Shown piece by piece: positions 759 through 24,803 of a DNA stretch of 25,639 nucleotides. The notes below the pieces were generated by a model, which did no database searches, had not been told where the DNA came from, and saw nothing but the letters and a program-made list of their open reading frames with translations. The position numbers and the translations under genes are program-made. The stretch is taken from positions 1 through 25,639 of the forward strand of contig MU633745.1 of NCBI GenBank assembly GCA_026770595.1. Reading direction: 5' to 3'. Position 1 is the stretch's first letter, and each line of letters starts with the position of its first letter. The DNA is from Ochromonadaceae sp. CCMP2298. Taxonomy: Eukaryota; Sar; Synurophyceae; Ochromonadales; Ochromonadaceae.

Positions 759-2315
759 ATGATAGCGGTAATTAGGCCTGCAACTTGTAAGGCACGCATC
801 AGCGTGGCAGGCCTTCGCAGCTTTTCCACGCAGAAGGACCTGCAGGAGAGGGTAGCGAGCATCGTGTCGATTGGAATGGACAAGCTCAAGGGGACGATGC
901 TTCAAGTCATGGCTCAACGCATGAGCGAGGAAGACATGGTTTCCATGGCCAGCCACTGGGGGAAGAAACTGTCGGGACTCGGAATAGAACAAACGCCTGT
1001 CCCTCCAACGCCGAGCGCGGACCGGCAGATCCCTTCGCCGCAGACACTTTCGCCACCGACCCCTCCAAGTCGCACCACGAGCTCCCACACGCTCGAGATG
1101 CTACGAGTGGAGGCCCAGTCGACAGCGGGGGACATCGATCTGTACCACCCTATCCTGGGCGAGCAGATCGCGGACCTGGGCTACAAAAAGGTTTACCTGA
1201 CCAGCGTGAGAAATCTAGTTTTGGCCCCCGTCTGGAAGCGACAGGTGATAAGCCCGCACTAAAATGCCGCTGTCCGTCCCTCGCCCCTCTCCCTGTCCCA
1301 CAGCTTACATCTCCCGATCTGATTCCATCACTCAACCTGCCAGCGAATTCTGCGCCCCGAGCGTGCTGCGTTGATCGCCAGCGATAAGATCAAGAACAAG
1401 CGCGGTTCTTCTCTCGCGGGATGCATCGCCATGTATATGGATAAGGAGACCAAGCGAGTAGGGATCGTTGACGGTCAGCATAGGGTAGGCGCCTTGATGG
1501 TCCTGTCTCAGAGAGGTATGAGAGCTCCATTGCCGACCCAATGAGTTGGGCTAACGATCCTAACCACCGTCGTTGCACTGTACACAGGGTTCTGGGCAGA
1601 GGACGCGCAGAATGTTCTGGTCGAGGTTTTTTCCACGGGCCCCGAAGCGGAGGTCACAGCTCTCTTCAAGGAAATCAACTCGGCAGAGCCTGTGCGCTTG
1701 ATAGACTTGCTTGTGCTGGAGAACGAACAGGACGAGTCGGGGGATGGAAAAGGGGAGCAGCGAGGAGCTGAAGAGGTGCAGCATCCCGAACCTGCCGCTT
1801 TGCTTGCATCTGAGAAGCCTGCTCCGGTTGGCGGGGCAGCGACAGGAGGTGGTGGGAGTGGGAGTGGGAGTAGTCAGAGTGCAGACGCGGAGGATCACAA
1901 GCCTGCCGCCAAGCAGCCCAGGCCGAAGAAGCAGCAGAAGGACCTCTCCCCTCTCGCAGTTGTGCGCGTACTGAATGAAACAGCCGAGGCTCTGCAGACG
2001 CAGTACCCCGACATGTTCAAGATTAGCTCTCGCTGCCGCAGTCCTCACATGAACGTGGACGTGCTCAGAGACGACCTCTTCCAGTGCGGCTTCCTCTCTC
2101 GACACAAGGTGCGCACCACTGAGCAGCTCCTGCAGCTGCTACAAGAGATCAATGCTCGACTGGGCGATAGGTATCGGGCGGAGTATCCAGGCATTATCGG
2201 AGACGATGCTGCTACTGATGACGGGGAAATAGGGAAAGCAGTGGCCTCTGCTCTTGTTAAGGCAAAGCTGCATAACTTCTACCTGGGTATCGACAAGGGC
2301 TGGCACTATCAATAG
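759..2315 (+). CDS. DGQHR-domain protein, probably mitochondrial
   Basis: Three exons, 759-1244, 1344-1515 and 1588-2315, join in phase to give 461 residues; the introns (99 and 72 bp) are GT-AG. The first 24 residues (MIAVIRPATCKARISVAGLR, then SFST) are basic, free of acidic residues and end in a typical mitochondrial cleavage context. A conserved-looking core follows: LGYKKVYLTSVRNL, then RILRPERAALIASDKIK spanning the first splice, the exact motif VDGQHRVGAL near residue 200, VLVEVF, and LFKEINSAEPVRLIDL. This pattern matches the DGQHR superfamily, which includes DndB of bacterial phosphorothioate DNA modification and is related to ParB-type folds. A low-complexity Gly/Ser/Glu linker (about residues 265-320) separates a C-terminal module containing SRCRSPHMNVDVLRDDLFQ and LGDRYR. 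The joined reading frame across the motif strongly supports the splice choices. The biochemical function in eukaryotes is unknown to me; a nucleic-acid role is inference. Confidence 0.85.
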
Positions 2316-2553: not shown

Positions 2554-3687
2554 TTAACCCTCCAGGGCCGAGGCTCCGGAGATGATCTCGATGAGCTCGG
2601 TGGTGATTCTGGCCTGGCGGGCTCTGTTGTACTGCAAGGTGAGCTTGCCGATCATCTCGCCAGCGTTCTTGGACGCATTCTCCATCGCACTCATGCGCGA
2701 AGACTGCTCGGAGGTGGCGTTGTCGAGCATGGCGTGGAAGAGGGTGGTGGCCATGGTGTACTCGTAGAAGTTCTGCAGCGTCTCGGGGTCCTTCTCGGGC
2801 TCCACCTCGAAGTCAAACAGGTAGGGGGCGGCGGGGTCCACCAGGGGGACAATGGACTTGATGGACGGGGTGTACGCAATGGCGGACTTGAAGTTGTTGT
2901 ACATCACGTGGATCGCGTCGAACTCGCCAGAGTTGGTCACCTCCTGGGTGATGGAGCAGGCGAGCTCGAAGCTGTAGGGCATCTGGCGGTCCGTGATGGT
3001 GCCGATGAACCGAGAGCCGTGCGTGCGGTTCAGCTGAGCGCGGCCCTTCTCGCCACATACGAAGATGCTGACAGTCTTGCCGTCGGCCTCCACTCTGGTC
3101 AAGGCATTCTTGACCATGCGGGACAGGATGGTGTTCACTCCTCCGCACAGACCCTTGTCGGTGGACAGCACCACGAAAAGGTTCTTCGCAGGGAAGGCAG
3201 TCACATCGAGCTCCTCCAAATCCTTTTTGGTGCCGCTGATGCTCTCGGTCCATTTCTGCAGACGAGGGGGTAGATAGGTCAAAAACGGTTACAACGACAC
3301 GGTGCAGGCATCTTAGGCTTACCGCGAAAGGATTGGCAGCCACTAATCGAGACTGGTCGCCACGCAACTTAGCAGCAGACACCATCTTCATCGACTTCGT
3401 GATCTTCTCAATGTTGCCTGTGCCCACCATTCTCTCCTTCACTGTATAGGAATAGCAGAAAATGTGTTAGTCGGGTCGCAAATGGCAAGGGGAAAAAATA
3501 ATAGGGCATTCTTACGCTGCTTCTCAGTGGCCATGCTACGCACTTGGATGGCCCTAAATAAGAGAGGTATGGAGGGGGGGAAGGAGAGGAGTCGATGGCG
3601 TCAATCTTTTGTCGGGGGTTCGTTCTGCAGGATTCGGTTGCAACTTTACCTTCTCGCCACCGGTTTAGATGCCTGGAACGCCTTCAT
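2554..3687 (-). CDS. ATPC (ATP5F1C-type): Mitochondrial F1F0-ATP synthase gamma subunit
   Basis: Four exons on the minus strand, 3687-3650, 3553-3516, 3441-3323 and 3255-2554, join in phase to 298 residues; introns are 96, 74 and 67 bp with GT-AG ends. Gamma is the rotating central stalk of the F1 motor. The protein begins with a basic presequence (MKAFQASKPVARRAIQVRSM), followed by the family's N-terminal helix (IEKITKSMKMVSAAKLRG), LSTDKGLCGGVN in the middle, and the diagnostic C-terminal helix RQARITTELIEIISGASAL. Length and motif order are those of mitochondrial gamma. The extra regulatory loop typical of chloroplast gamma is absent, as far as I can see, which together with the presequence points to the mitochondrion. 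Two tiny 38-nt exons encode the targeting region. Its 3' end converges on the DGQHR gene with 238 bp between stop codons. Confidence 0.97.
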
Positions 3688-10436: not shown

Positions 10437-13400
10437 TCACCGCCATCGGGTGGCACTAAGTGTTTTCGCAATTTCGATTTTGATGTCTTCAGTTTGGTCC
10501 GCTTTGCAGCCCGAGGTGGGCAGCACCAACATCCCCAAGATGGAGTCGTCGCAGGGCTGTGTCGCGTCCTCGCTGCCACGATTGCCGCCCATTTTGATGA
10601 GAGACCGGTCCCGCTTCACCTTTTCCTCGACGGTCAGGGGGGACTGCGGCAAGGCGTCGTCTGGGCTGAAGATCGTGTGCTTCTCGATGTACCTGCGCCA
10701 GGAGCGTGCGTCCTCGTGCGTGGCGAAGATGAGAGAGAGGCTGACCTTGAGGTACTCACTGAAGTGCTCGCCCTCCTCCTCCCTCTTCAACACGCGCATC
10801 TTCTGCCCGTCCAGGCGCGAAATCAGGATGCTGAAGCTCTTGCCGTTGTCCTCGGGCACGGGGCCCACCACGAAGAGGTCCACCAGCGGATAGGCGAAGG
10901 ACGTGAACACCTCTGCGCTCCTCGGGTCGAACTCAGAGCTGCTGCTCGCATCCGCGGGGCAGGGAAATATTTCTCGGATGACCTTGTTGATGCACTCGTC
11001 CGACCTGTCGATAGAGGCGCTGACCTGCTCCTGTTCTGCAGGAGAGGCCTCCTCTGCAGCCCCAGGCACCGCCTCTGCTTTTGCGCCTGCTCTGCTTTTG
11101 CTGTCCGAGTATTCGTAGAGCACGTTCCCGCACAGGCGGTAGGTGTGGTTGGAGGGTGAGGAGAAGAAGCTCTTGATGCCGGATGAGTACTTCTTGCGGA
11201 TGTTCGCCTGCAAGATGCCGCTCGTGGGGTACAGCGGCTGCGTCCTCGCACGCTCTATGCCTATGGTCTGCTCTAGCAGCGACTGGAAGATGACGTAGTT
11301 CTGGGCCGTGTTGTCCAATGCCACTGGGGAGTTGCTGTTCCACGTGCCCGCAGTCAGCACGGAGGTGCTGATGGACAGGATCAGGTCGCCGCAGGGGTGG
11401 GTGTACAGCTGCTCGATGTACTGCGCGGGACAGCTCCAGATGAACTTCTGGTTGCCGCCGCTCTTACGCCACGTCTCTCTCTTTGCGCCCTTCCGCTCGG
11501 GAAGCAACAGCTCCGATAAGACCACTCGATCGGGGCTGACCAGTATGAGGTAAGAATGGTTGCGCGCATAGCCCCAAGCCTCATCAGAGCTTATTACTAT
11601 GCCCTCGTCATCAGCTGGTTTAGATTCGCCAGCAGCACTTTGCGTGTCGGCCTCGGGCGCAGGTGCCTCTACGGGCGGAGGCGCTGCCACCTCTCGCTTC
11701 ACGATCTTGCGCCTGACGTGCAGGTGGTGCACGACGTGCAGACGCGGCTCTCTCTGGAAGCAGGTCACGCTGTCCGCCACGTACTGGGCCGCAGCCGCCT
11801 GCAGGTTGTACGCAGTCAGCAGCCCGTTGCGCCCGAAGGCCCGCGGAATTCTCTTGCGGTTGACGCCGAAGCGGTCTCCGGGCAGGTCCAGCTCTTGGCT
11901 AAAAGCGGTGTTGCGCAGGCCCTCCGTGGCGCGAGAGGCGAGGTCGAAGACGCCCACCGCAGGCTTCAGCGCCACTCCCAACAGCCCCTTGGCTATCCCC
12001 ATCCCGAGGCCCACGCCGCCGCCCGACTCCCAGCCGCGATAGGGCGACACGACGATGCCTGCGACGCCCTCTACGATGTTCTTGCCCAGCTCCTGGGTGC
12101 CCACGTAGAGCCCCTCGGACACAGTGGAGGCCTTGTTGAACCGCCGATAGGACCGGTTGCGCTGGAACTGGGAGTCCAAGGTGAGCAGAGACACGCCCTT
12201 GCCCAGCCCGCCAGTGATCTTGCTCGTGAATGCCGATGTGCCGCCGATGGTGCGCGACGCCAGGCTGATTCCCCCTTTGGAGAGTCCGTTGAGGAAGGAC
12301 CCGTCCTTGTCCAGCAGTCCATCGATGGGCTCGTAGAACAAATCATACACACCCGTGCCGAGGTTGGCCACCAGCCCCACAGACCCCTCCACGATGTCGG
12401 ACGAGCCGATCAGTCGGTGGAACTGCCTCCAGAAAGCCGACTTGTAGTGCTTCGCTAGGATCTCCCCCAGGATGGCGGGAGACCCGAAGGCGTGCTCGGC
12501 GATGAGCGCGTTGAGGCAGAGGCGCGCTCCGTCCAGCTGTGAGATGACTGAGATGATCGCGGACTCGGAGCTGGTAACGACTAGCTGCGTGGATGGCCGG
12601 AAGGTCATGACTAGGTCTATGGGGTGCAGCTGCAGCAGGCTCAGGTAGATGCCCGTGGAGCTCTTCGCGGAGGAGCTGTACTGTACGTACGGAGCGATGC
12701 CCGAGACCATGAAGTCCTGGAAGAGGCGCAGCACGGCCTCCTTGTCCACGCGCCCCTCCCAGCAACTGCTGCCCAGCTGTCGGAAGGCGATGGCGTCTTG
12801 GCTGTTGGCGGAGGCCCTGCCCATGCTGGGGTTGTGCGCCACGTCCCGCAGACTCCTCACGTAGCGGATACACTTCACGATGATCTCCTCGTCGATGTCC
12901 AGCTGCAAAGGCGATATCCACAGAGTGAAGACTTCGAAGTAGTGCAGGTTCGAGTCCTCGTCGAAATTCTCAGTGCCTGTGGACTCCACGTCGCCGATGG
13001 ACTGGTGGTAGCGCTGCTGAATGTACAGGTGGAGCGAGGGGTACGAGGTGCGGTTCGGGTCCAGCCCGGGCAGCATCAGCGACCCGTGCACCGCCTCTCG
13101 CATGCGCCTGGGGAACAGTGCCACTGGGAAGTCTGGCTTGAGCAGCTGGTTGCTGACCAGGATCTCCTGCACCGTGACTGCAAACTTGACCAGGTCCAGC
13201 GAGCGCTCCACCGTCATTTCGATGCCCTGCAACACCAGGTGGAACACCTCCATGGGCTCTGCGTTCACTACGGACAGCCCCACGGACTGGATGGCGAACA
13301 GCACGGAGATGAAGTCCTGGTCTGGAGAGAAGTCTCCGAAGGTGGAGTCGTGGCGACTGCTGCTGCTGCGAAGCACCTTCGACAATTTGCTGATGGCCTC

Positions 13401-16400
13401 TGCGGAAGACACCGAGTTGCGCCTACGGCTGCTCCTCTGCAGACCGCCGCTCTGTTCCCCACTGGCGATGTTGTCTTGGTCCTGCAATATCTCCAGCACC
13501 CTCGTGGACCCATCTGCGCGCAGTCGGAAGAGCACAGCGGTCTGGAAGTCGTCCAGAGAGACGCTCACCCTGCCCAGGCTTCTGCCCAGCACGTGGTCAG
13601 TCCAGCAGCGCTCTATGGCCTGCCTGCACGCCTGCACCCAGCCCACGAACTCCATCTCCGACGAGCACTTGAAGCTGTGCTTGACGGACTCCATCAGGAT
13701 CGAGAAGCCGAAAATCTCTCTCTCGGGAGCGCCGTTCGCCCCAGTCCCAGTCCCAGTTCCAGTCCCGTCCTCTGCCTTTTGCTCGTCGGCCTGTGCGTTG
13801 CGGCTGGCGCCTACGGGTTTGTCGAGCATGGCCAGCAGCTCCTCATTCAGAGAGGGCGGGTTCAGCACCAGGTCAACGTCTTCGAACAGACGAAATAGCC
13901 CGCGCTTCACAGGCCTGCGCAGGCTGACCATGGAGGAGCGGCTGCTCTGCTTCTCCAGGTTCTCAGAGAGCGGTCTGCCTGCACCACTGAAGGGAGCGCG
14001 CGACGAAATAGCGCGGCTCAGACTCGTCATGCTCATGCGCGAGGGGGGTATTTCGACAGGAGAAGAGTCGGGGCAATCAGCCGAGTCGAGGTGGGAATCC
14101 GGCAAGGCCGTTGGGGCGGCATCTCCGTCTGAATCTGTATCGCTATCAGACCCACTCTCTGCGGGCTTGCCATCGATGGCCTTACTCAGCGCGCGAGGGA
14201 CGAGCAGTTTTTCACTCAGCATCCACTCGCAGATCTCCCTCGCACGCTCCGCCTTGCTGACCTGCTTGGTGGCCAGCAGCGCCGCCACTATGTCTGCCAG
14301 CCGCACAGGCGCGTTGGCGCATTCCTCCAGCAACTCGTCCACACTGCAGCCCCCCTTGAGCAGCGTGTCCAGAGTCGGACCCGCCACAGAGCTCAAGCGC
14401 CCGCGGCTGTCCGCACCCGGAACATCGCCGTCGAAGTCGAAGTCGTCGTCTGCGTCCCCGCCTACCTGCCAGTCTTCTGCCTCGAGCGGTTCCTCGCCAG
14501 GGACCACAGCAGCCCCGCTCGAGTCGGTATCATGTGTGATGAAAGGAGGCTCTGGCGCAGTGACGGATGCCTCTGGACTTAGGTCTCCCTCCGCCTCGCT
14601 GAAGGAGGGGCTCGAGGAGGCAAGGCGATCCGTGGAGTACTGTGCGAAGACGCCGAGGTGGTCTGCGATCTGCAGGATCATCCAGCGGGTGCGGTTGTAG
14701 TCCATGCCGGGCTTGGAGCGGGACTGGCTCGAGGGTGCGGCGGTCGGGAAAGGGTTGAAGTAGTCCATGGAGGTCAGCCAGCGCTTGTCCTGGTAGCGCA
14801 TCACGGAGGCGAAGTGCGCGTCTGCGGCTCTGCCCTTCGCCGCACACACTGCGCGAGACATGTTCACCACGCCCAGCAGGATTTCTCGGCTGTCGTCCGG
14901 GTAGACGTAGAGCACGTCTGGCCGCAGGATGCAGTAGACCGGCACCCAGGCGTCTGTGTCGGGGTCCTGTCTCAGCAGGTATCCCTCTGCGATGGGGTTG
15001 CCTAGGCTGGGGGCCTTCTTCTTGACCAGCACGGGAGGCAGGCGCGCGTCGTCGTCCAGCTGCACCTCGCAGCGCACCCAGGTGGACAACTGCTTTATCT
15101 CGAGCTGGACCTTCTTCTGACCAGAGAAAGGCTTATCCCAGGCGAAGGGCGAGAAGCCTCTGCGCTCGATGCTGTCCCAGGGAGGCATGGCTGCTTCGGC
15201 GCGGTTGGGGCTGGGTGCGGGGGCACGTCCATCGGGCTGCACGTCAGTAGGGGGGACTTCCACTGCGGAAGGCGCTGCCTCGGCCTCGGAGGAGGGAAGC
15301 AGCTCGTCCACCGTGGGGAGTGCCACTCTCTCGCTCAGTGCTCTCCCGCTCTGGCCCTTCCCGCGCCCAGCAGAGTCCTGCGAGGGTCTGTTGACAATCT
15401 GCCTGAACCTGATCTCCATGTCCGTCATGTTGTCGATGCGGTAGGGGGGCCACAGAGTGCTCTGCTCAGTCAGCGTGGCGACCAGCGACGCCCCCACGCT
15501 CTCGATCGACACGCGCACGATGATCAGCGGGTCACGCAGCTTCGCATACACCACCCCCAGCTTGCAGATGTCCACCTCCGCCTGCCACTCTTCTTCGGCA
15601 ATCCTGACATCCGCCCCAGAGCCCTTGCTTTTGGAGACGCGGCGGATATGCAGCAGTTGGGACTTGCTCTTGGAGGGGAAGTGGTAGCTGTACAGTGCCC
15701 CCGGCTGCAGAGTAAAGGGCGTGGCCGCTGCGGAGGGGAATATCTGCTCGACCTCGATGGCCATGGACAGCTTGGACACCATCACGTGCTTGGGCACGAT
15801 GGTGACCGTAGTGGTGTTCTGCAGGAAGCCCGTGCCCCGCTCCACGTATGCTCCGAACTCATAGTACGTACTGCTGCCCGAGGGCAGCTTAGCGCTAGCC
15901 CCGCATGCAGATATGGAGAGGTCCGATGCGTCGAAGTCAGCCTTGACCACGTCCACCCCGTCGCTCCAGTCCGTCTCCCCAGGCACGCGCAGGCTCAGGC
16001 TGGGGTTGAAGCCCATCATGCGCTGCGGGCGGAAAGGCAGGTCCCCCTTGGCGCGCATGAACGGGGCGTAGAAGGTGCACCTGGCGCGACTGAGCAGCGA
16101 GCTGAACAGGCCCCTCTTCTCCGCGACCTCCGCCTTGATGCCCTTGGTCTGCTCAAATATGTCCCGCTCAGCCACGTGGCACAGTCGCAGTCTGAGGCAG
16201 GAGAGAGACCCCACCTTGCTGCCCTTGGGGATGGGGGCGTCGGGGCAGTCCGCTAGCAGCCCTATCTTCATCAGCTCGGGCACCTCCGTGTCCACAGCAG
16301 TCGAGTTGCGCCTGGTCAGGACGGGCTTGGCGGGAGAGGCCTTCGAGCTGGGTGAGGATGGGGACGCGGTTGGAGCGGAGTCGCCAGCCTGTGGCTCTGC

Positions 16401-19400
16401 CGGTCCCTCTTCCACCTCCTTCTTGATTTCACCTTCGGCGACCCCAGCGGCGCTGTCCTCTGCCTCGATTATGAGGGCGTTGTCTATCCTGCGGGAGCCC
16501 AGCTTCCCGTTCTCCCAAGGGACGAACAGGTAGTCTCCCTCTGCCTGGCAGGCTGCGCAAGAGGAGAGGTGCTGTCTGAGGCGACTGAAGACATCCAGCA
16601 GCGTCCACTCGGCGGAGGCCACGATGTCCACGTGGCGCAGGTGGTCGTGCGGCAGGTGCACAGAGACCACCACAATGCGGCCTCCGCGGGGACCGCGCAT
16701 GGCAGAGGGGGGGGTGCTCTCGGAACTGGCAGCACCGCCCCGAATGAGGAGGGGAGTATTGAAGGGCGTGCTAGCAGAGGACAGCGGAGACGTCGAGGAG
16801 AACCGCTTCGCTATAATGCGCGTCGGCGTCAGGACAATAGGCGGCTGCATGCCTGCATCCCCCTGCGAGGAAACTGTGTCTGCGTCTGCGTCAGCAGTTC
16901 CATTCGGCTGCACCGCAAAGCTGTCCTGCTCCTCGTCTTCCTCGCCGCTTTCTTCGGTCGAGCTGCTTCTGCCATCGCTGCCCACCTCGTCGTCCAGCCC
17001 GTCCGCGTCCACCTCCAAGGACCGCACCTTGTAGCCTCTGCCAGACTGCCTCTGCGCGGGCTCTCCTCGTGGAGTGGGGCTTCCAAGGACGGGCAGCAGC
17101 GTGTGGGCTGCGGGGCGACTGGCCTGGGGGAAGAAGCTGTCGGAGGAGGAGGCCTCGCAGAAGTCGAGCTCCACGCCTGAGCGGTTGCAGATGAGCACTG
17201 CGCAGGACAGGCGCACGATGTTCTCCCGCATCACCATGGACACCACCACCGAGGGCAATGTCAGGTCCCTGTGTCTGTAGTTGAAGTGCATGGAGGGCAA
17301 AACCAGGTCCACTGCGCGCTCGGTGGTGGAGAAGGGCGCGGACCTGGAGAAGAGCACGGCCCACTTGCTCCAGGAGTAGTTCAGCATGCGCACGCTGATG
17401 AAGATGCGGTTGGAGAACAGGCTCTGCAGCGAGTGCACGTCGAATATCTCACCCGGCAGGATGATGCCCTCGCTGGTGATCAGCCCCTCCGAGTCCGCCA
17501 CCCGGTACAGCAGCGGCTGCGGGAAGAGGTTGCACAGCTGCAAAGGCGCCAGCAGCTGCACGCACATGGGCTGCACGCGCGCACTCCGCGTCTTGAGCAC
17601 AGCGCCCGCTGAGGGGTTGGCATCGGCCCCAGGAGCACCCTCAGCCTTGGGCTTGAAGGGTGTAGCGCCTTGGGCGGGGTAGCGCACTGGCACGAAGGAG
17701 CGGTTCCCGTCATGCATCTGCGCCTTCACGTCCACCACCTCCGGCTTTAGTAGGACCATCCAGCCGCTGCTGGTGGCAGTGTTTGCACCTTCCAGCGGAC
17801 AGGCGCACAGCTGCGCGCGGAGCCTGGCGGGGTCTCCCCAGTAGCCCTGCGCGATGAGGCTCTGCATGGCGGGCAGCGCCTCCACCCAGCTAGCCGCGTC
17901 ACCCAGGCGCAGGTACAGAGACGAGCGCGGGTTCACGAAGCGCACAGGCACGTACCAGGTCTTGTCTGGGCCCAGGGCAGTCTCTGCAGAGGAGCCGTAG
18001 AGGCGTACGGACATGTGCACGAGGCGCCCGGTGTTGTTGGTGAAGGAAAGGATGCTGCGCAGGAGAAGCTCGCGCACTCCGTCTGCCTTGATCTTCATCT
18101 CCAGCACTGCCAGGGGCACCTCCTGTACGAACTTGATCGGCCTCGCGGACAACGACTGTGCTATCTTGGGCGGAGGTGTCGCAGGTGTCGCATCCTCACT
18201 GGCGCTGTCAACACTTACTGCTGCGGCGTCACTTGCCCCAGCGCTGCTCTTGGCGACAGAGGAAGCTGCCAACTCTAGAGCGTCTGCTCCAGCAAGCTCG
18301 GCAGCGTCCCCTTCCGGCGCACTGTTCCGGTGAGGGTGGCTCAATTCCTGCACGTCCTGAGAATTGGAGTAGGAGTCGCGCAGGTCGTCCTGCTCCGCAT
18401 CCACCTCTCCCACTGCCGCCAGCACATCGAGCGCCCCGGCGGACCGCGAGCTGCTTCCCAGGATGCGGCTGAGGTCCACAATGGAGCCCCTTACCGGGGA
18501 ATGCGCGCCCGTGCTGGCCATCTCGAACGCGTGCGTGCCCACCTTGTCTATGGACAGCGCCGCCTTGGACTCGTACTGGTCTCGGAAATTGGGGAACTTA
18601 ATGCGCATGAGGTACTCGTTCGCGAAGGAGCTGCTGCCCCCCATGGGCGCGCCGCGCATATTCCTCTTCGCCCGGTGGGTCTCCAGGGCCTCCCAGAGCT
18701 GCTGCACCTCTATGGGCAGAAACTGGCCCACGGCTATGTTGTTCTCGCTGATGACGTTCTCGTTGATGCTAATGGAGCACACGATCTCCACGCCCAGCTC
18801 GTTGATGATCTTGTAGGGGGGCAGCTGCGTGGAGGAGGTGGTGACTACGTCGTTCAGAGACAGCTTGCTCAGCATGCTGGCCAGGGCGGTCTCGGCGGCA
18901 TTCAGCTCCAGTGGGTCTGTCACTACCTCCACGCGCACCTTCGCACCCGTAGCCGCCCCTGGCCCCGCCCCCACGCCTGCCTCTGGCCCTGTCTCTGGCT
19001 GCATCCCGGGCTCCACCGTAGGACCGGTCTCGGTAAACACCCCGCTGCCTTTGTCGTTGGGTCGCAGCTGGTTGCTCTCGTCAGTCGCCCCGATGGCCCG
19101 CAGCGTGATGGGCTCCACGATGGGCTCCCAGGTCTCCTGCAGCTCGTTGAAGCTCCACACCGCACAGGCCGTCCCCGCAGCCATGTGCATCTGGTCCACG
19201 GAGCGCGAGAACATCATACAGTTGTCGAACACGTCCAGGCGCAAAATGTTGAGGTTGTACGTGTTGTTGCGCAGGATGGCTTCGAAGTCGCAGATCTGCG
19301 CGATCAGCTCGTTGTTCTTCAGGCGCTTCTCTGCTGCCAGGGGAGTGTGCACGAGGTAGTGCGTGAGCAGGGGCAGGTGCGACACATCTTGCCGCATGGC

Positions 19401-22400
19401 CTTAGCGGGCGCGTACAGATCCTGCTCCGTGCTGGTCACGAGGAGGCGCCTTGTGAGGCTGCTCTTGGCCTGCTTCACCGCCTCAACTATGAAGAACAGG
19501 TCCTGCAGAGACATCTGCACCCGAGCCAGACCAGCGCTGCTCTCCTCGTCCGCAGGGATGTTGGGGCTGCCAGGCGTGGAGTCCCCTTGCCTCACATCTG
19601 CAGAGTCAACGCTGCCACGGCGGACAAACAGCGCTTCACTGCTGCGCGATGGTTGCGTTCCCTCAACAGGCGATTTACTAACCGGTGCGACTTTGAATTT
19701 GACCGTCCTCACCTTCTGCGGGTAGGGGTGTCTATTGGGCCGGCCCGCCCAGGTGCCCAGGCGCACCCAGGGCAACAGCAGGCCCAGGTTCCTCTCAAGC
19801 ACGTTCTCGCGCGGGAGCGTCAGGACCTCCTGCCCCACCACGAGGACGCAGGGCTCCACCATGGACTGGATCTGCGCGCTGTTGATCTCGCACATGGGCG
19901 CGATGTAGATGCCCCCCACGCTGATGTCGATGTTGAGGGAGATCAGGCCCGGCCCGCTGAAGAGGAACCCCCTCCATGCCTGCGCGTAGTCCAGGTCCAC
20001 CTGGAAGCACAGCGCGTGCGCCCCGTACTGCTCCGTAATGTTTGTCAGACACACCACTGTGTTGTGCACATGCACCTCAGCGTCCAGAGCAGCTTTGAAG
20101 TCCCAAGGGCCCAGGCCCGCGTGCTCTATGCAGACCTGGTTACGATGCGCGTTGTTGTGTATGGGCTTGAGGAAGTACTCTACCGCGTGCAGAGCCTTGG
20201 CCACATTCGCCACAGCAGCGCTGTCCGTGATCGTGACGACGCAGCGCCGGAGGTTGCCGTTGCCCTGCTGGCTGTAGCGTATGTGGGGCCTGGCCTCTCC
20301 CCCGCCTTCCGCTGTCTCGAAAGCAGAGACTTTCTCCCTGTCGCCCTCGCTTCTGCTCTTTCTCCTTGCTGGCCGAGACTTATCGCCCGAATTTAAGGGG
20401 GCGAATGAGCGCGGCGCAAAAATGATCGACTCAATGGAGATCTCGTCCAGGTTGATAGAGGTCGTGGACAGCCCGTCGTCGTCAGCCGGCTCTTCCACGC
20501 TCACTATCAAGAACTTCATGGCCGATATCTCGATGCCGTTGCCGCCCGTCTTGTGCTTGTTGTAAAAATCGATCTCGAGCCCCTCGAAAAGCACGCCGAT
20601 CACGACGTCCCCGTGCTCAGTCTCATTCCCATCTTTGAGACCGCTGCTCGTCTCCGGGTCTATAGGCTCGGCATCTGCGTGACTCGCCTCAGATGCGCCC
20701 CTCCCAGCAGGCTCGAACAACTTCCGCCGGTGCTTGTGGTGGTGCGAGTGGGCCGGAATGGTGTCTTCGAAGCGTGTGCTGAAGTTGTGTCCGTCCCGCC
20801 CGTATGGGAAGTAGGGAGGGGGCAGTGGCTTGCAGAATAGATCGTAGTAGCTCAAGGCGTTGTCCGTCGTGATGATCCGGCCCTTTGCTATGTGGACTGG
20901 GACTGTAGAGAGCGTTGGGAGCTCAGCCTGCAGGACGTTACTTCTGAACAAGCTGTCAGTGAGCTCGACGGTCTTCGGGGGGGAGTACTGGTATACGTCC
21001 TCCACCACCTCCACCAGCTCGCAGAAGTTCTGTTGGATGAGATTGATGATGGCCAGGTACTGCCCCTGCGCCAGAGTCCAGTCCAGCTCGTCCGCGCAGA
21101 CGTCAATGGACATCGTGTTCATCACAGGCGCTCCTGGCTCCCGGCTCACAGGAGAGAGCTTGAATCGCCCGTAGATGTTCACGTCAGTGCCCACTGCATT
21201 GGCGTTGCACCAGCTGCAGATGACGGAGTGCTCCAGGCTGAACGCGAGGGCGAAATCCGTAGCTCCCCGCACTGTCATTTGACGCGGCGCCGAGAGGTCA
21301 TTGTAGCACACAGCTTTCTGTGCTACCTCCCACCTTTCCGGCAGCGCGGTATTCACAGCTGCACCTGCCTCGCTGTCGAACAGCAGATACAGCAGCCGCC
21401 TCGACTGCTTCAGCTGGCTCAACCAGCGCCTGCGAGCTATGTACGGACCCTGGCAGTACTGGGCGCCGTTGGGGGTCATAGTGGCGCAGGAGCGATACAG
21501 GTTCAGCTTGTCCACGATGATCACGAGCGCGTCTGTGCCGCAGCTGCTCATCGGCAGGTGCACCTCGGACTGCGTCACCGCTATCCCCAGACGCAGCATT
21601 CCCCGGGGAGGCTCTGCCGCCACCTGGGCGCCAGGCCCAGTCCCCACCGCCATAGCTGCGTGCGCGGCTGGGAAGAAGTGGTCCCTGAGGAAGGAGAGCA
21701 AGGTCATAGTGCAGCGCTGCAGATACACGAAGCGCACCTGCTCCACACGCACCTCAACCAGCGAGCACTCCCCCGCCCTCTTCGTCGCGTGCAACTCGAG
21801 TCGGCCCGCCTCTTCGATGTCGCTGATGAGGCAGGTGTGCACAGCATACTGTGTAGTCTTCTCGAACAGCTGCGGCGAGTGCGCCAGTGCTGCGTACTGG
21901 GTCAGGGCGGGTCCGAACTTCAGCACGTGCACCTCCACAGATTGCACCAACAGGCACAGTACCGGCTGCTGCTTGTGCTGCATATCAAGCTTGAGCGAGT
22001 CCAGGTGCAGCGCCACTATACTTGTCGGCGCGGTGATGTGATACGTGTCTGCCAGCACTAGGCCTATGGGAGGTCTCGCTGAGGCTAGTCGTCGTCCCTG
22101 CTGCTGCGCGAGGCTGTACGCCTTCACGCACTCACAGAGCTGCTCAATATCTTTGAAATCTAATGACAGCACTATATTCATCATGTTGAATGTCGTGTAG
22201 CCCGCCATGACACCCACTGCGAAGCTTTCCCCCCTCTTTGTGCCTCCACACCAGTGTATTTCACTCGGAAGCATTTTGTGTGCAGACAAGCATCGAACAC
22301 TTCTAAGCGGCTCTGCACCGTGGCTCCGTCGCTCCGCTGGCGCGTTTGCCGATGCAGAGGCATCGACGATGCGTAGGAGGTCCAGGTCGCGCAACCTCTC

Positions 22401-24704
22401 GCTGCCTTGCGAGCTCGTCATGCGCACAGCGATATCACCGCCCACGACAAGAGTGCTCTCTGCGCACAAGTCGCCGGCCGCAGCAGCGGAGTACGTTATG
22501 CTGTTGTTGTCTGCACAAGTGTACCTCACGACTCGCTGGTCTGCGTCCCTCCACTCCAAAGCTGTAGACAGAGATTCGATGCAGACTCGTGTGGACGTAC
22601 AGCATTCCGGCATACACCAGATGGCGATCGGGGCAGGGCGCCACTCTGGGCCTGCAGGCGCACCTCCAGGGGTCAGTGCTCCCCGCAGAAACCCCAACGC
22701 CTCCACCTCCTTACCGCCCACGCACACCGTGACTGCAGAGACAGTTGCGTCGCTGGTCCAGGAGCCCTCCTCGGCAGCCTTGAGCATGGCCAGCTCCTGG
22801 GAGGAGGCGTACCACGCTGCGGAGGCGTCGAAGCGCAGGAGAGCGCTTAGCACAGGAGGCACAGGAGGCGAGGAGCGGCGGTCTGCCCTGGTGAGCCTGA
22901 TGCCCTCTGCTAGGAAGAAGCTCTGTCCGTCAGAGTCTGGCGAAGCTGAGTGTCCACGCCCGGCCGCTGAGAATGCAACCGACCCCACGGAGACTGAGAT
23001 GCGCCCGGCAGAGTTTGGGGCGGATGCCCCTATCCCTAGTGCACTGTCACCTGGGCTGCTGGATATGCTGCTGTTGACAATACTGAAACCAATATTCTCG
23101 TGCTGACCACCCAGGATAAAACATCCACGCACATGAGGCGCTTGTATGCTGATACGCCCTACGACTGCCGCTGCCTGCCTGGCCCTTCGCAGAGGGTCTG
23201 CGAAACTCTTGCACGTTTGACGCTTCTGTATGAACCTAACTACAGCTCCCACTTCGTCGAATGCCGCCATGGCACTGCTGAGTGCGAGCACATCCAGTGG
23301 CACAGAGATCGGCTGAAGTGTTGCCTCGATCACTGCCTCGTAAGCATAGAACTCGGTCCTACCAGCTTCCTCCACAGGCAGCGGTCGTGCAAACACCTCA
23401 TACTGGAACTTGAACACCTCTTCACTTGTAGGGGCATCAGACTCTGCCGTCCTTGCGTCCTGTAGGAGCGCCACATAGGCTCCGTCCGCGAGGTCCTTGC
23501 GAGGCACGCGAGCCCCCACCTGCAGGCTGCGGACTGCCGTTTCCACGGAATACACAGAGAGCGCAACGCTTTCTGCGCTTTTGGCATCCACACTCCCCTC
23601 GCTGTTCTGCCGCAGCTGAATTGTGCACCCAGCCAGGGACAGCACTTGGCTGTGTGCTTCTGCGTCCAGGTGGGGTAGGATGACGGACACCCTGGCGAGC
23701 ACCGCAGAGGCAACCACATGAATCTCCGAATTAAAATAACTCCTCCCTGCGTAGGGAGAGCACTCATAAGTGTCGCTGAAAACGTCCTGCATCGTGGAAA
23801 GCAGCGTCTGGTGGGCTTGGCTGCGCTCGGAGTCAATGGCCCTTAGTCGCCGGACGAGGTGGTCCAGGTCTGTGCGCGGAGAATTCACAGCGGCAGTCTG
23901 CACGATCCCATCCAGCAGGCTGGCCAGAGCGCCGCAATAACTGGGGCATATGTTGATTGCGCAGTCCTCGGCGGCTATATGTACAGTAAATTTCGAGTCC
24001 CCTGCTCCTGCGGCGGGGCTGATTCCCCCCAGTGGTGCGTGTCCCTCCAGCCGCACGTGCGACAGAGAGAAAAGAGCTGCCCGCTCGTCACCAAATTCCC
24101 CCTGGCTGCGGATGCTCAGACCACGAATCGATGCGTCAGCGCAGCTGTCTGCTGCGTTGCGCAGTGCGGAGAGGGAGCAGTCCTGCAGCCGTACCTCCAG
24201 CTCGTCACCCACGCACACCCGCACGTCGCGCAGAGTCAGCGCCAAACGAGCGAAGGATGATGTCCAACTGCTCAAGGCCGGCGCCTTCTTCGAGCCTTGT
24301 TCTTCAGGGGCAGGGTGAGGGGCAGGGCGAGTGTCAGGGTGGGGGTCAGGGTGAGGGGCAGGAGCTGTGGGAGCTCCCGCATCGGGCAGATCTAGCTGTA
24401 CGTGCACGTGATGTGCAGTGACGGCAGCGGTCAGCCCCCACGCCCAGCCCAGTGACAGTGTCACTTTGGTCGACACGGATGTGCAGTAGAAGGGTCCTAG
24501 AGGAACAGGAAATACAATGCAGATCACTCCGGTCTTGAGCGTTCCTGAGAGCACATTGAAGCTGGGGTAGTCCTCTCCCAGTCGGTCGAAAGGGTTCAGC
24601 AGTGCGAGAAACAGATTCACGATCGCATCACCCGCGAGGAGAAACACGTGCCACCATCCAATCGAGGCACACATGGTGCGGAAAGTTGGGAGGGAGCTCA
24701 TCGC
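10437..24704 (-). CDS. VPS13: Giant VPS13-family bridge-like lipid transfer protein
   Basis: From the first in-frame ATG (24701) this is one open frame of 4,754 codons. VPS13 proteins form hydrophobic channels moving phospholipids between membranes at contact sites. Rough positions: hydrophobic segment 13-35; bridge repeats from about 140, including SEVHLPMSSCGTDALVII near 1040 and PPYKIINELGVEIV near 1957; the VAB (SHR-BD) region about 2450-3100, closing with the family hallmark WPPYRIDNMTDMEIRFRQ near 3083; a PH domain beginning GYLLRQ near 3238 and finishing near 3703, split by a long insert; the VPS13/ATG2-type C-terminal region about 3900-4265, with GLVANLGTGVYDLFYEPIDG and GMGIAKGLLGVALKPAVGVF; and a terminal PH-like domain ending ARSWRRYIEKH near 4670. 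Low-complexity linkers occur near 114-131, 1840-1880, 2130-2180 and 2510-2660. I cannot find Chorein_N; the frame stays open upstream to 24774 and a likely splice acceptor at 24705-24706 suggests earlier exons. Confidence 0.93.
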   Translation of the reverse strand, partial: AMSSLPTFRTMCASIGWWHVFLLAGDAIVNLFLALLNPFDRLGEDYPSFNVLSGTLKTGVICIVFPVPLGPFYCTSVSTKVTLSLGWAWGLTAAVTAHHVHVQLDLPDAGAPTAPAPHPDPHPDTRPAPHPAPEEQGSKKAPALSSWTSSFARLALTLRDVRVCVGDELEVRLQDCSLSALRNAADSCADASIRGLSIRSQGEFGDERAALFSLSHVRLEGHAPLGGISPAAGAGDSKFTVHIAAEDCAINICPSYCGALASLLDGIVQTAAVNSPRTDLDHLVRRLRAIDSERSQAHQTLLSTMQDVFSDTYECSPYAGRSYFNSEIHVVASAVLARVSVILPHLDAEAHSQVLSLAGCTIQLRQNSEGSVDAKSAESVALSVYSVETAVRSLQVGARVPRKDLADGAYVALLQDARTAESDAPTSEEVFKFQYEVFARPLPVEEAGRTEFYAYEAVIEATLQPISVPLDVLALSSAMAAFDEVGAVVRFIQKRQTCKSFADPLRRARQAAAVVGRISIQAPHVRGCFILGGQHENIGFSIVNSSISSSPGDSALGIGASAPNSAGRISVSVGSVAFSAAGRGHSASPDSDGQSFFLAEGIRLTRADRRSSPPVPPVLSALLRFDASAAWYASSQELAMLKAAEEGSWTSDATVSAVTVCVGGKEVEALGFLRGALTPGGAPAGPEWRPAPIAIWCMPECCTSTRVCIESLSTALEWRDADQRVVRYTCADNNSITYSAAAAGDLCAESTLVVGGDIAVRMTSSQGSERLRDLDLLRIVDASASANAPAERRSHGAEPLRSVRCLSAHKMLPSEIHWCGGTKRGESFAVGVMAGYTTFNMMNIVLSLDFKDIEQLCECVKAYSLAQQQGRRLASARPPIGLVLADTYHITAPTSIVALHLDSLKLDMQHKQQPVLCLLVQSVEVHVLKFGPALTQYAALAHSPQLFEKTTQYAVHTCLISDIEEAGRLELHATKRAGECSLVEVRVEQVRFVYLQRCTMTLLSFLRDHFFPAAHAAMAVGTGPGAQVAAEPPRGMLRLGIAVTQSEVHLPMSSCGTDALVIIVDKLNLYRSCATMTPNGAQYCQGPYIARRRWLSQLKQSRRLLYLLFDSEAGAAVNTALPERWEVAQKAVCYNDLSAPRQMTVRGATDFALAFSLEHSVICSWCNANAVGTDVNIYGRFKLSPVSREPGAPVMNTMSIDVCADELDWTLAQGQYLAIINLIQQNFCELVEVVEDVYQYSPPKTVELTDSLFRSNVLQAELPTLSTVPVHIAKGRIITTDNALSYYDLFCKPLPPPYFPYGRDGHNFSTRFEDTIPAHSHHHKHRRKLFEPAGRGASEASHADAEPIDPETSSGLKDGNETEHGDVVIGVLFEGLEIDFYNKHKTGGNGIEISAMKFLIVSVEEPADDDGLSTTSINLDEISIESIIFAPRSFAPLNSGDKSRPARRKSRSEGDREKVSAFETAEGGGEARPHIRYSQQGNGNLRRCVVTITDSAAVANVAKALHAVEYFLKPIHNNAHRNQVCIEHAGLGPWDFKAALDAEVHVHNTVVCLTNITEQYGAHALCFQVDLDYAQAWRGFLFSGPGLISLNIDISVGGIYIAPMCEINSAQIQSMVEPCVLVVGQEVLTLPRENVLERNLGLLLPWVRLGTWAGRPNRHPYPQKVRTVKFKVAPVSKSPVEGTQPSRSSEALFVRRGSVDSADVRQGDSTPGSPNIPADEESSAGLARVQMSLQDLFFIVEAVKQAKSSLTRRLLVTSTEQDLYAPAKAMRQDVSHLPLLTHYLVHTPLAAEKRLKNNELIAQICDFEAILRNNTYNLNILRLDVFDNCMMFSRSVDQMHMAAGTACAVWSFNELQETWEPIVEPITLRAIGATDESNQLRPNDKGSGVFTETGPTVEPGMQPETGPEAGVGAGPGAATGAKVRVEVVTDPLELNAAETALASMLSKLSLNDVVTTSSTQLPPYKIINELGVEIVCSISINENVISENNIAVGQFLPIEVQQLWEALETHRAKRNMRGAPMGGSSSFANEYLMRIKFPNFRDQYESKAALSIDKVGTHAFEMASTGAHSPVRGSIVDLSRILGSSSRSAGALDVLAAVGEVDAEQDDLRDSYSNSQDVQELSHPHRNSAPEGDAAELAGADALELAASSVAKSSAGASDAAAVSVDSASEDATPATPPPKIAQSLSARPIKFVQEVPLAVLEMKIKADGVRELLLRSILSFTNNTGRLVHMSVRLYGSSAETALGPDKTWYVPVRFVNPRSSLYLRLGDAASWVEALPAMQSLIAQGYWGDPARLRAQLCACPLEGANTATSSGWMVLLKPEVVDVKAQMHDGNRSFVPVRYPAQGATPFKPKAEGAPGADANPSAGAVLKTRSARVQPMCVQLLAPLQLCNLFPQPLLYRVADSEGLITSEGIILPGEIFDVHSLQSLFSNRIFISVRMLNYSWSKWAVLFSRSAPFSTTERAVDLVLPSMHFNYRHRDLTLPSVVVSMVMRENIVRLSCAVLICNRSGVELDFCEASSSDSFFPQASRPAAHTLLPVLGSPTPRGEPAQRQSGRGYKVRSLEVDADGLDDEVGSDGRSSSTEESGEEDEEQDSFAVQPNGTADADADTVSSQGDAGMQPPIVLTPTRIIAKRFSSTSPLSSASTPFNTPLLIRGGAASSESTPPSAMRGPRGGRIVVVSVHLPHDHLRHVDIVASAEWTLLDVFSRLRQHLSSCAACQAEGDYLFVPWENGKLGSRRIDNALIIEAEDSAAGVAEGEIKKEVEEGPAEPQAGDSAPTASPSSPSSKASPAKPVLTRRNSTAVDTEVPELMKIGLLADCPDAPIPKGSKVGSLSCLRLRLCHVAERDIFEQTKGIKAEVAEKRGLFSSLLSRARCTFYAPFMRAKGDLPFRPQRMMGFNPSLSLRVPGETDWSDGVDVVKADFDASDLSISACGASAKLPSGSSTYYEFGAYVERGTGFLQNTTTVTIVPKHVMVSKLSMAIEVEQIFPSAAATPFTLQPGALYSYHFPSKSKSQLLHIRRVSKSKGSGADVRIAEEEWQAEVDICKLGVVYAKLRDPLIIVRVSIESVGASLVATLTEQSTLWPPYRIDNMTDMEIRFRQIVNRPSQDSAGRGKGQSGRALSERVALPTVDELLPSSEAEAAPSAVEVPPTDVQPDGRAPAPSPNRAEAAMPPWDSIERRGFSPFAWDKPFSGQKKVQLEIKQLSTWVRCEVQLDDDARLPPVLVKKKAPSLGNPIAEGYLLRQDPDTDAWVPVYCILRPDVLYVYPDDSREILLGVVNMSRAVCAAKGRAADAHFASVMRYQDKRWLTSMDYFNPFPTAAPSSQSRSKPGMDYNRTRWMILQIADHLGVFAQYSTDRLASSSPSFSEAEGDLSPEASVTAPEPPFITHDTDSSGAAVVPGEEPLEAEDWQVGGDADDDFDFDGDVPGADSRGRLSSVAGPTLDTLLKGGCSVDELLEECANAPVRLADIVAALLATKQVSKAERAREICEWMLSEKLLVPRALSKAIDGKPAESGSDSDTDSDGDAAPTALPDSHLDSADCPDSSPVEIPPSRMSMTSLSRAISSRAPFSGAGRPLSENLEKQSSRSSMVSLRRPVKRGLFRLFEDVDLVLNPPSLNEELLAMLDKPVGASRNAQADEQKAEDGTGTGTGTGANGAPEREIFGFSILMESVKHSFKCSSEMEFVGWVQACRQAIERCWTDHVLGRSLGRVSVSLDDFQTAVLFRLRADGSTRVLEILQDQDNIASGEQSGGLQRSSRRRNSVSSAEAISKLSKVLRSSSSRHDSTFGDFSPDQDFISVLFAIQSVGLSVVNAEPMEVFHLVLQGIEMTVERSLDLVKFAVTVQEILVSNQLLKPDFPVALFPRRMREAVHGSLMLPGLDPNRTSYPSLHLYIQQRYHQSIGDVESTGTENFDEDSNLHYFEVFTLWISPLQLDIDEEIIVKCIRYVRSLRDVAHNPSMGRASANSQDAIAFRQLGSSCWEGRVDKEAVLRLFQDFMVSGIAPYVQYSSSAKSSTGIYLSLLQLHPIDLVMTFRPSTQLVVTSSESAIISVISQLDGARLCLNALIAEHAFGSPAILGEILAKHYKSAFWRQFHRLIGSSDIVEGSVGLVANLGTGVYDLFYEPIDGLLDKDGSFLNGLSKGGISLASRTIGGTSAFTSKITGGLGKGVSLLTLDSQFQRNRSYRRFNKASTVSEGLYVGTQELGKNIVEGVAGIVVSPYRGWESGGGVGLGMGIAKGLLGVALKPAVGVFDLASRATEGLRNTAFSQELDLPGDRFGVNRKRIPRAFGRNGLLTAYNLQAAAAQYVADSVTCFQREPRLHVVHHLHVRRKIVKREVAAPPPVEAPAPEADTQSAAGESKPADDEGIVISSDEAWGYARNHSYLILVSPDRVVLSELLLPERKGAKRETWRKSGGNQKFIWSCPAQYIEQLYTHPCGDLILSISTSVLTAGTWNSNSPVALDNTAQNYVIFQSLLEQTIGIERARTQPLYPTSGILQANIRKKYSSGIKSFFSSPSNHTYRLCGNVLYEYSDSKSRAGAKAEAVPGAAEEASPAEQEQVSASIDRSDECINKVIREIFPCPADASSSSEFDPRSAEVFTSFAYPLVDLFVVGPVPEDNGKSFSILISRLDGQKMRVLKREEEGEHFSEYLKVSLSLIFATHEDARSWRRYIEKHTIFSPDDALPQSPLTVEEKVKRDRSLIKMGGNRGSEDATQPCDDSILGMLVLPTSGCKADQTEDIKIEIAKTLSATRWR
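13736..13770. repeat. 6-bp tandem repeat in VPS13 coding sequence
   Basis: About five copies of CCCAGT or a close variant encode an alternating Gly-Thr run (GTGTGTGTG) in the insert of the split PH domain. As a multiple of three it can change length without breaking the frame. Confidence 0.75.
24306..24362. repeat. Purine-rich tandem repeat encoding a Pro/His linker
   Basis: GGGGCAGGGTGA-like units of about 12 bp repeat four to five times. On the coding strand they encode alternating Pro-His, Pro-Asp and Pro-Ala dipeptides near residues 114-131 of the VPS13-type protein, before the first recognised bridge segment. Confidence 0.7.
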
Positions 24705-24803
24705 CTTGGAGGACGGGCGTGGACTCGCCTTCCCAAAGTCGATTCTATACCTTGGCCGGTACGGCAGTGATTATCGTAAGAGATAAATCCCCGAAGCCCT
24801 CAC

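Follow-up and report, generated by a model that had tools for sequence, protein, structure and literature searches.

In proteins with the ParB-CTPase fold, the arginine of the GxxR loop is required for the binding of nucleoside triphosphates (NTPs), according to the available text of a 2025 survey of this fold (PMC12704722). In the same text, 11 of 28 purified ParB-fold proteins bound CTP, ATP, or GTP, the binders including phage DUF6551 fusions and a DndB-like protein, and DndB is described as an ATP-dependent repressor (PMC12704722). The nucleotide-binding tests reported there used bacterial, phage, and archaeal proteins; sulfiredoxin is named as the commonest eukaryotic representative, and the survey proteomes, some of them eukaryotic, were screened with TIGR00180 and PF02195 for ParB and the fold (PMC12704722). 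In the present study, we analyzed a 25,639-nucleotide stretch of DNA from Ochromonadaceae sp. CCMP2298 (assembly GCA_026770595.1, contig MU633745.1; hereafter, the window), which carries a nuclear gene for a protein with a DGQHR motif, a member of a eukaryotic family whose profile matches (window protein and scanned relatives) include neither TIGR00180 nor PF02195. We consider this protein, at a probability of roughly one half, to be a mitochondrial NTP-controlled switch of the DGQHR/ParB type that probably acts on organellar nucleic acid.

The window is part of contig 62 in an 11.2-Mb assembly of 724 contigs, in which one copy of the gene was detected. Read directly from the sequence, splicing of three exons at GT-AG sites yields a stop-free frame of 461 residues, and the start ATG at 759 is the first ATG downstream of an in-frame stop. 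The introns and the spliced frame with its quoted peptides, as laid out in the original prediction, were upheld by database relatives (numbered with a P below): P0002, a protein of 270 amino acids, matches residues 192-461 at 100% without a trace of intron 2 and is probably transcript-derived because its longest contig has 1,647 bases, and P0001 (73% identity over 98%; contig of 1,654 bases) and P0003 (an MMETSP transcript protein; 47% over 94%) are continuous across both junction sites. The gene is organized as follows.

759-1244, + strand: exon 1, with presequence, N-terminal helical segment, linker, and start of the DGQHR core (residues 1-162)
759-833, + strand: probable mitochondrial presequence, residues 1-25, ending in LRSFSTQ (called by our own rule)
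840-956, + strand: N-terminal helical segment with conservation in some of the relatives, LKGTMLQVMAQRMSEEDMVSMASHWGKK
1158-1244, + strand: first part of the DGQHR core, DGQHR/ParB-like, residues 134-162
1245-1343, + strand: intron 1, GT-AG, GTGATAAG...GCCAG
1344-1515, + strand: exon 2, second part of the core, residues 163-219 and the first base of codon 220
1470-1484, + strand: DGQHR motif, a GxxR phosphate-binding-type loop, residues 205-209
1516-1587, + strand: intron 2, GT-AG, GTATGAG...CACAG, absent from the identical protein P0002
1588-2315, + strand: exon 3, with the remainder of the core, variable linker, C-terminal domain, and stop TAG
1588-1706, + strand: last part of the core, with VLVEVF and LFKEINSAEPVRLIDL
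1707-1940, + strand: linker, acidic then basic, probably disordered (low confidence)
1941-2312, + strand: C-terminal all-helical domain, MFKISSRCRSPHMNVDVLRDDLF ... KAKLHNFYLGIDKGW

The exact DGQHR motif has a chance expectation of 1.7e-4 in a random protein of the same composition, and its surroundings in the core also match profiles. The NCBIfam profile DGQHR (TIGR03187) matches the window protein with an E value of 1.9e-6 and 27.9 bits, which is below the curated cut-off of 58.85 bits. The DGQHR core is not a chance match, and the earlier claim of an exact motif within a full core was correct. The Pfam scan listed no family for the window protein, and hence neither PF14072 nor PF02195. In a structure comparison, the core of the predicted model, an alpha-beta core with a GxxR-type phosphate loop, resembled ParB and sulfiredoxin folds, which places it in the ParB/sulfiredoxin-fold superfamily, though the Foldseek E values against solved ParB folds were weak (0.03 or worse) and all structural Z scores were below 8, values described as common by the comparison tool.

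Conservation was evaluated by aligning 201 rows to profile A5, namely the window protein, its fragment P0002, and all the other listed relatives apart from P0201-P0204; coverage varies by column, and the searches behind these rows were seeded on shared words and are thus biased toward conserved motifs. The DGQHR residues were invariant (D, G, and Q 181/181 each, H 182/182, R 183/183), and R38 and R44 (168/168 each), N125 (197/199), and D134 (197/198) were nearly or fully so. The C-terminal domain was constrained as well, at C (161/172), P (170/171), H (156/171), N (156/171), D (165/171), and R (169/171), and further at N207 (163/164), K (162/162), G (162/162), and W (157/157). This pattern suggests that both domains matter, and does not indicate for what purpose.

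The family was surveyed, as had been proposed, by three protein searches, which gave organism names for only part of the matches and listed at least 204 relatives, 200 of them at an E value of 1e-19 or better. An organism could be named for 14 of the matches listed: Tribonema, Choristocarpus, Phaeothamnion, Chrysoparadoxa, Cylindrotheca, Proboscia, Attheya, Pseudo-nitzschia, Chaetoceros, Tetraselmis, Mesvir1 (which we take to be Mesostigma), Guillardia, Cryptomonas, and the thraustochytrid Mucochytrium, which is non-photosynthetic. They belong to the stramenopiles, the green/streptophyte algae, and the cryptophytes, the group being our own presumed assignment for eight of the 14. Several are transcriptome entries with possible cross-contamination; the contigs that carry those of Guillardia, Tribonema, and Cylindrotheca are 0.5-2 Mb long. 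Among the matches listed that carry names there was no animal, fungus, or land plant, a result from which absence is not demonstrable. A quick tree of 136 rows (midpoint rooting, SH-aLRT support) placed the window protein with P0001 and P0003 (support 96), and a long branch (support 100) set the family apart from P0201-P0203, which were flagged for unusual composition. Judged from these sequences, the family is old in stramenopiles, cryptophytes, and green/streptophyte algae and apparently undescribed; it is therefore neither a recent nor a one-off capture, which modifies the earlier suggestion of a captured, domesticated protein. P0175, P0095, P0162, and P0193 are divergent, with long N-terminal extensions, branch early in the drawn tree, and have a start that is not presequence-like by the rule given next; they may be a non-organellar subfamily.

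The N-terminus of the window protein, MIAVIRPATCKARISVAGLRSFSTQKD, is presequence-like, with its first acidic residue at position 27 and an R-S-F-S-T segment. We applied our own presequence rule (a net charge of at least +3 over residues 1-35, no acidic residue before position 20, and no strong hydrophobic stretch) to 143 proteins with an initial Met and 150 or more residues ahead of DGQHR, and 66 of the 143, the window protein included, were presequence-like. The first acidic residue stood at a median position of 21, whereas shuffling these regions 200 times gave a mean of 6.5. The window protein is thus probably mitochondrial; of the earlier claim, the presequence-like start stands and recurs in relatives, and the localization itself is inferred from this simple rule. 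Five of the 143 (P0014, P0041, P0083, P0096, and P0129) were signal-peptide-like by the rule. By eye, P0083, P0088, P0089, and P0096 have a signal peptide followed by Ala-Phe, of which the rule flags P0083 and P0096 only; this is the diatom plastid targeting type. P0088, P0089, and P0096 form one clade (support 99) within the diatom-bearing group, and these, with P0083, are diatom-group paralogues of 458-942 amino acids, which suggests a plastid-targeted duplicate.

The C-terminal helical domain, predicted confidently (predicted local distance difference test, pLDDT, 93), follows a linker that is long in the clade of the window protein and short or absent in other relatives. The domain, which the original prediction left unrecognised, has no clear match in the Protein Data Bank (PDB). 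It is a conserved part of the family and, among the structures searched, matches best with giant-virus proteins annotated as DNA-sulfur modification-associated (TM 0.71 and 0.65; E about 0.015). The giant-virus proteins compared, A0A481Z845 of Pithovirus LCPAC304 and A0A481YWW6 of Marseillevirus LCMAC202, resemble the whole window model over 374 and 331 columns (E 8e-10 and 2e-9) and the C-terminal domain alone with a probability of 1.00 (TM 0.65-0.71; E 0.014-0.016), but they are shorter (268-284 amino acids), with 14-20% identity in the fold alignments. Compared by predicted structure, they have both the core and the helical C-terminal domain; over the whole model, TM values are low (0.23 by query, 0.36-0.38 by target) and the rmsd is large (12-26), and therefore the domains match singly and not as a rigid pair. 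By profile, a two-domain match was obtained only with P0201-P0204, presumably viral. P0201-P0204 are Asn/Lys/Ile-rich proteins of 271-283 amino acids that join PF14072-type DndB to the family across both domains. The sharing of a two-domain protein with giant viruses could mean that the window protein is an organelle-targeted defense or anti-virus protein, kept or exchanged for that reason. Besides the matches of the C-terminal domain, named giant-virus proteins account for seven of the eight viral-library matches to the whole model at E 0.001 or better, and DndB is part of bacterial conflict systems in the available text of one source (PMC10853773). A housekeeping role, however, is better suited by the deep conservation, the one detected copy, and the organelle-type N-termini, and we regard a defense role as distinctly unlikely.

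In the explanation we favor, the nuclear gene would supply mitochondria with a protein of the eukaryotic DGQHR family whose core binds an NTP (ATP, CTP, or GTP) through the GxxR loop. Binding or turnover of the NTP would alter the packing of the core on the conserved helical C-terminal domain, so that the protein would act in the mitochondrial matrix as a switch under nucleotide control, with the C-terminal domain carrying the output. The likeliest client, by analogy with ParB, Noc, KorB, and DndB, would be organellar nucleic acid, in nucleoid organization, partition, or expression. It is from the GxxR-dependent NTP binding in this fold (PMC12704722) that we infer an NTP-controlled matrix protein, and the variable linker, acidic then basic, fits this picture and does not prove it.

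Several points weigh against this explanation, in addition to the weak fold scores given above. In the available text of the survey, 17 of the 28 purified ParB-fold proteins bound no NTP (PMC12704722). The family sequence profile matched no PDB chain at E values up to 10, and no DNA-binding fold was found for the C-terminal domain among 116 PDB chains compared. Besides the five signal-peptide-like N-termini, 72 of the 143 are not presequence-like; many of these begin within the conserved N-terminal helix and probably come from truncated gene models. Furthermore, the strongly conserved C, PH, N, D, and R could equally be a ligand or catalytic site. Because invariant polar residues are concentrated in this way, the main rival is a mitochondrial enzyme resembling the free serine kinase (SerK/SbnI), in which the core would pass phosphate to a small molecule or protein and these residues would form the substrate pocket. 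The named profile matches, however, are of the DGQHR and DndB types, the latter with a link to DNA; in the structure comparison, SerK ranks below ParB, Noc, and PadC, and DUF6551, the other near relative, is without known function. We regard an enzyme of this kind as unlikely.

If the mitochondrial switch is real, it would be a concrete candidate for the organization of mitochondrial, and in diatoms perhaps plastid, genomes, and a further eukaryotic branch of the ParB fold linked to giant viruses. A more far-reaching version, which we consider unlikely as a whole, is that such a switch organizes or partitions mitochondrial DNA in many algae, that its two-domain form is otherwise only giant-viral and was exchanged with early protists, and that the diatom duplicate was retargeted to plastids. 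A description of the family was not found in the PubMed Central literature, as far as its text was available and with most subscription journals outside its coverage; the Guillardia entry is already labelled ParB/Sulfiredoxin automatically. No word beginning with ParB occurs in the available text of a review, dated 2026, on how organelle genomes are segregated (PMC13108849).

The gene has a convergent neighbor, an exon of the ATP synthase gamma chain at 2557-3288 on the - strand (PF00231, 5e-62). A single uninterrupted stop-to-stop frame of 4,777 codons at 10440-24770 (- strand) is VPS13-like (PF25036, 1e-27, and PH) and unusually long beside intron-bearing genes. Upstream of the DGQHR gene, a repeat of about 88 bases occurs in two copies (126-213 and 302-385), and the same pair, equally spaced, is present on contig C307 of the assembly (1364-1623), which is either a second haplotype or overlapping contig, or a duplication.

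Among the described systems, the phage DUF6551 proteins (PF20188; L001-L004, three distinct proteins) share the family core, QRxxxxxxA...DGQHR...LFxxIN (hhalign 98.5%, E 2.6e-15), but the alignment stops at column 130 of 266, the C-terminal profile reaches 0.9%, and they are without a presequence. The bacterial DndB (PF14072/TIGR03233) and TIGR03187 proteins, sampled as 13 proteins of one phylum that include a DndB at 456 bits, also resemble the core (hhalign 98.1%, core columns 21-142); they differ in that the window protein is under the curated cut-offs and the C-terminal profile is unmatched (0.1%), and the profiles of the sampled DndB and phage DGQHR proteins thus gave no match to the C-terminal domain. 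The window protein could still be a DndB orthologue serving DNA phosphorothioation in an organelle, for which weak matches speak: TIGR04172 on the window protein (E 0.0048), PF14072 in 9 of 62 scanned rows (best 6.3e-5; P0048 at 22.6 of the 29.1 bits of the Pfam gathering score), and TIGR03233 in 2 of the 62 (best 0.0014). The profile shortfalls and the unmatched C-terminal domain stand against it, and the partner genes searched, DndC and DndD, had no match, exon by exon, in the possibly incomplete 11.2-Mb assembly, with cut-offs that 0 of 14 control genomes passed; phosphorothioation is very improbable, and the link to it suggested earlier is not supported. By these comparisons, the family is not DndB itself.

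Eukaryotic sulfiredoxin has the same fold, can be organellar, and carries its catalytic Cys in a GCHR motif. The window protein might likewise be a sulfiredoxin-type oxidoreductase of mitochondrial peroxiredoxins. The family, however, has Gln in place of this Cys in 181 of 181 covered rows and an extra C-terminal domain; this reading is ruled against by sequence and is hardly credible. The PF02195 family of canonical ParB and Noc was not among the Pfam families found in the 62 scanned rows (E 0.01 or better), and ParB_N had no match in the assembly. What ParB and Noc share with the window protein is the core fold and its GxxR loop.
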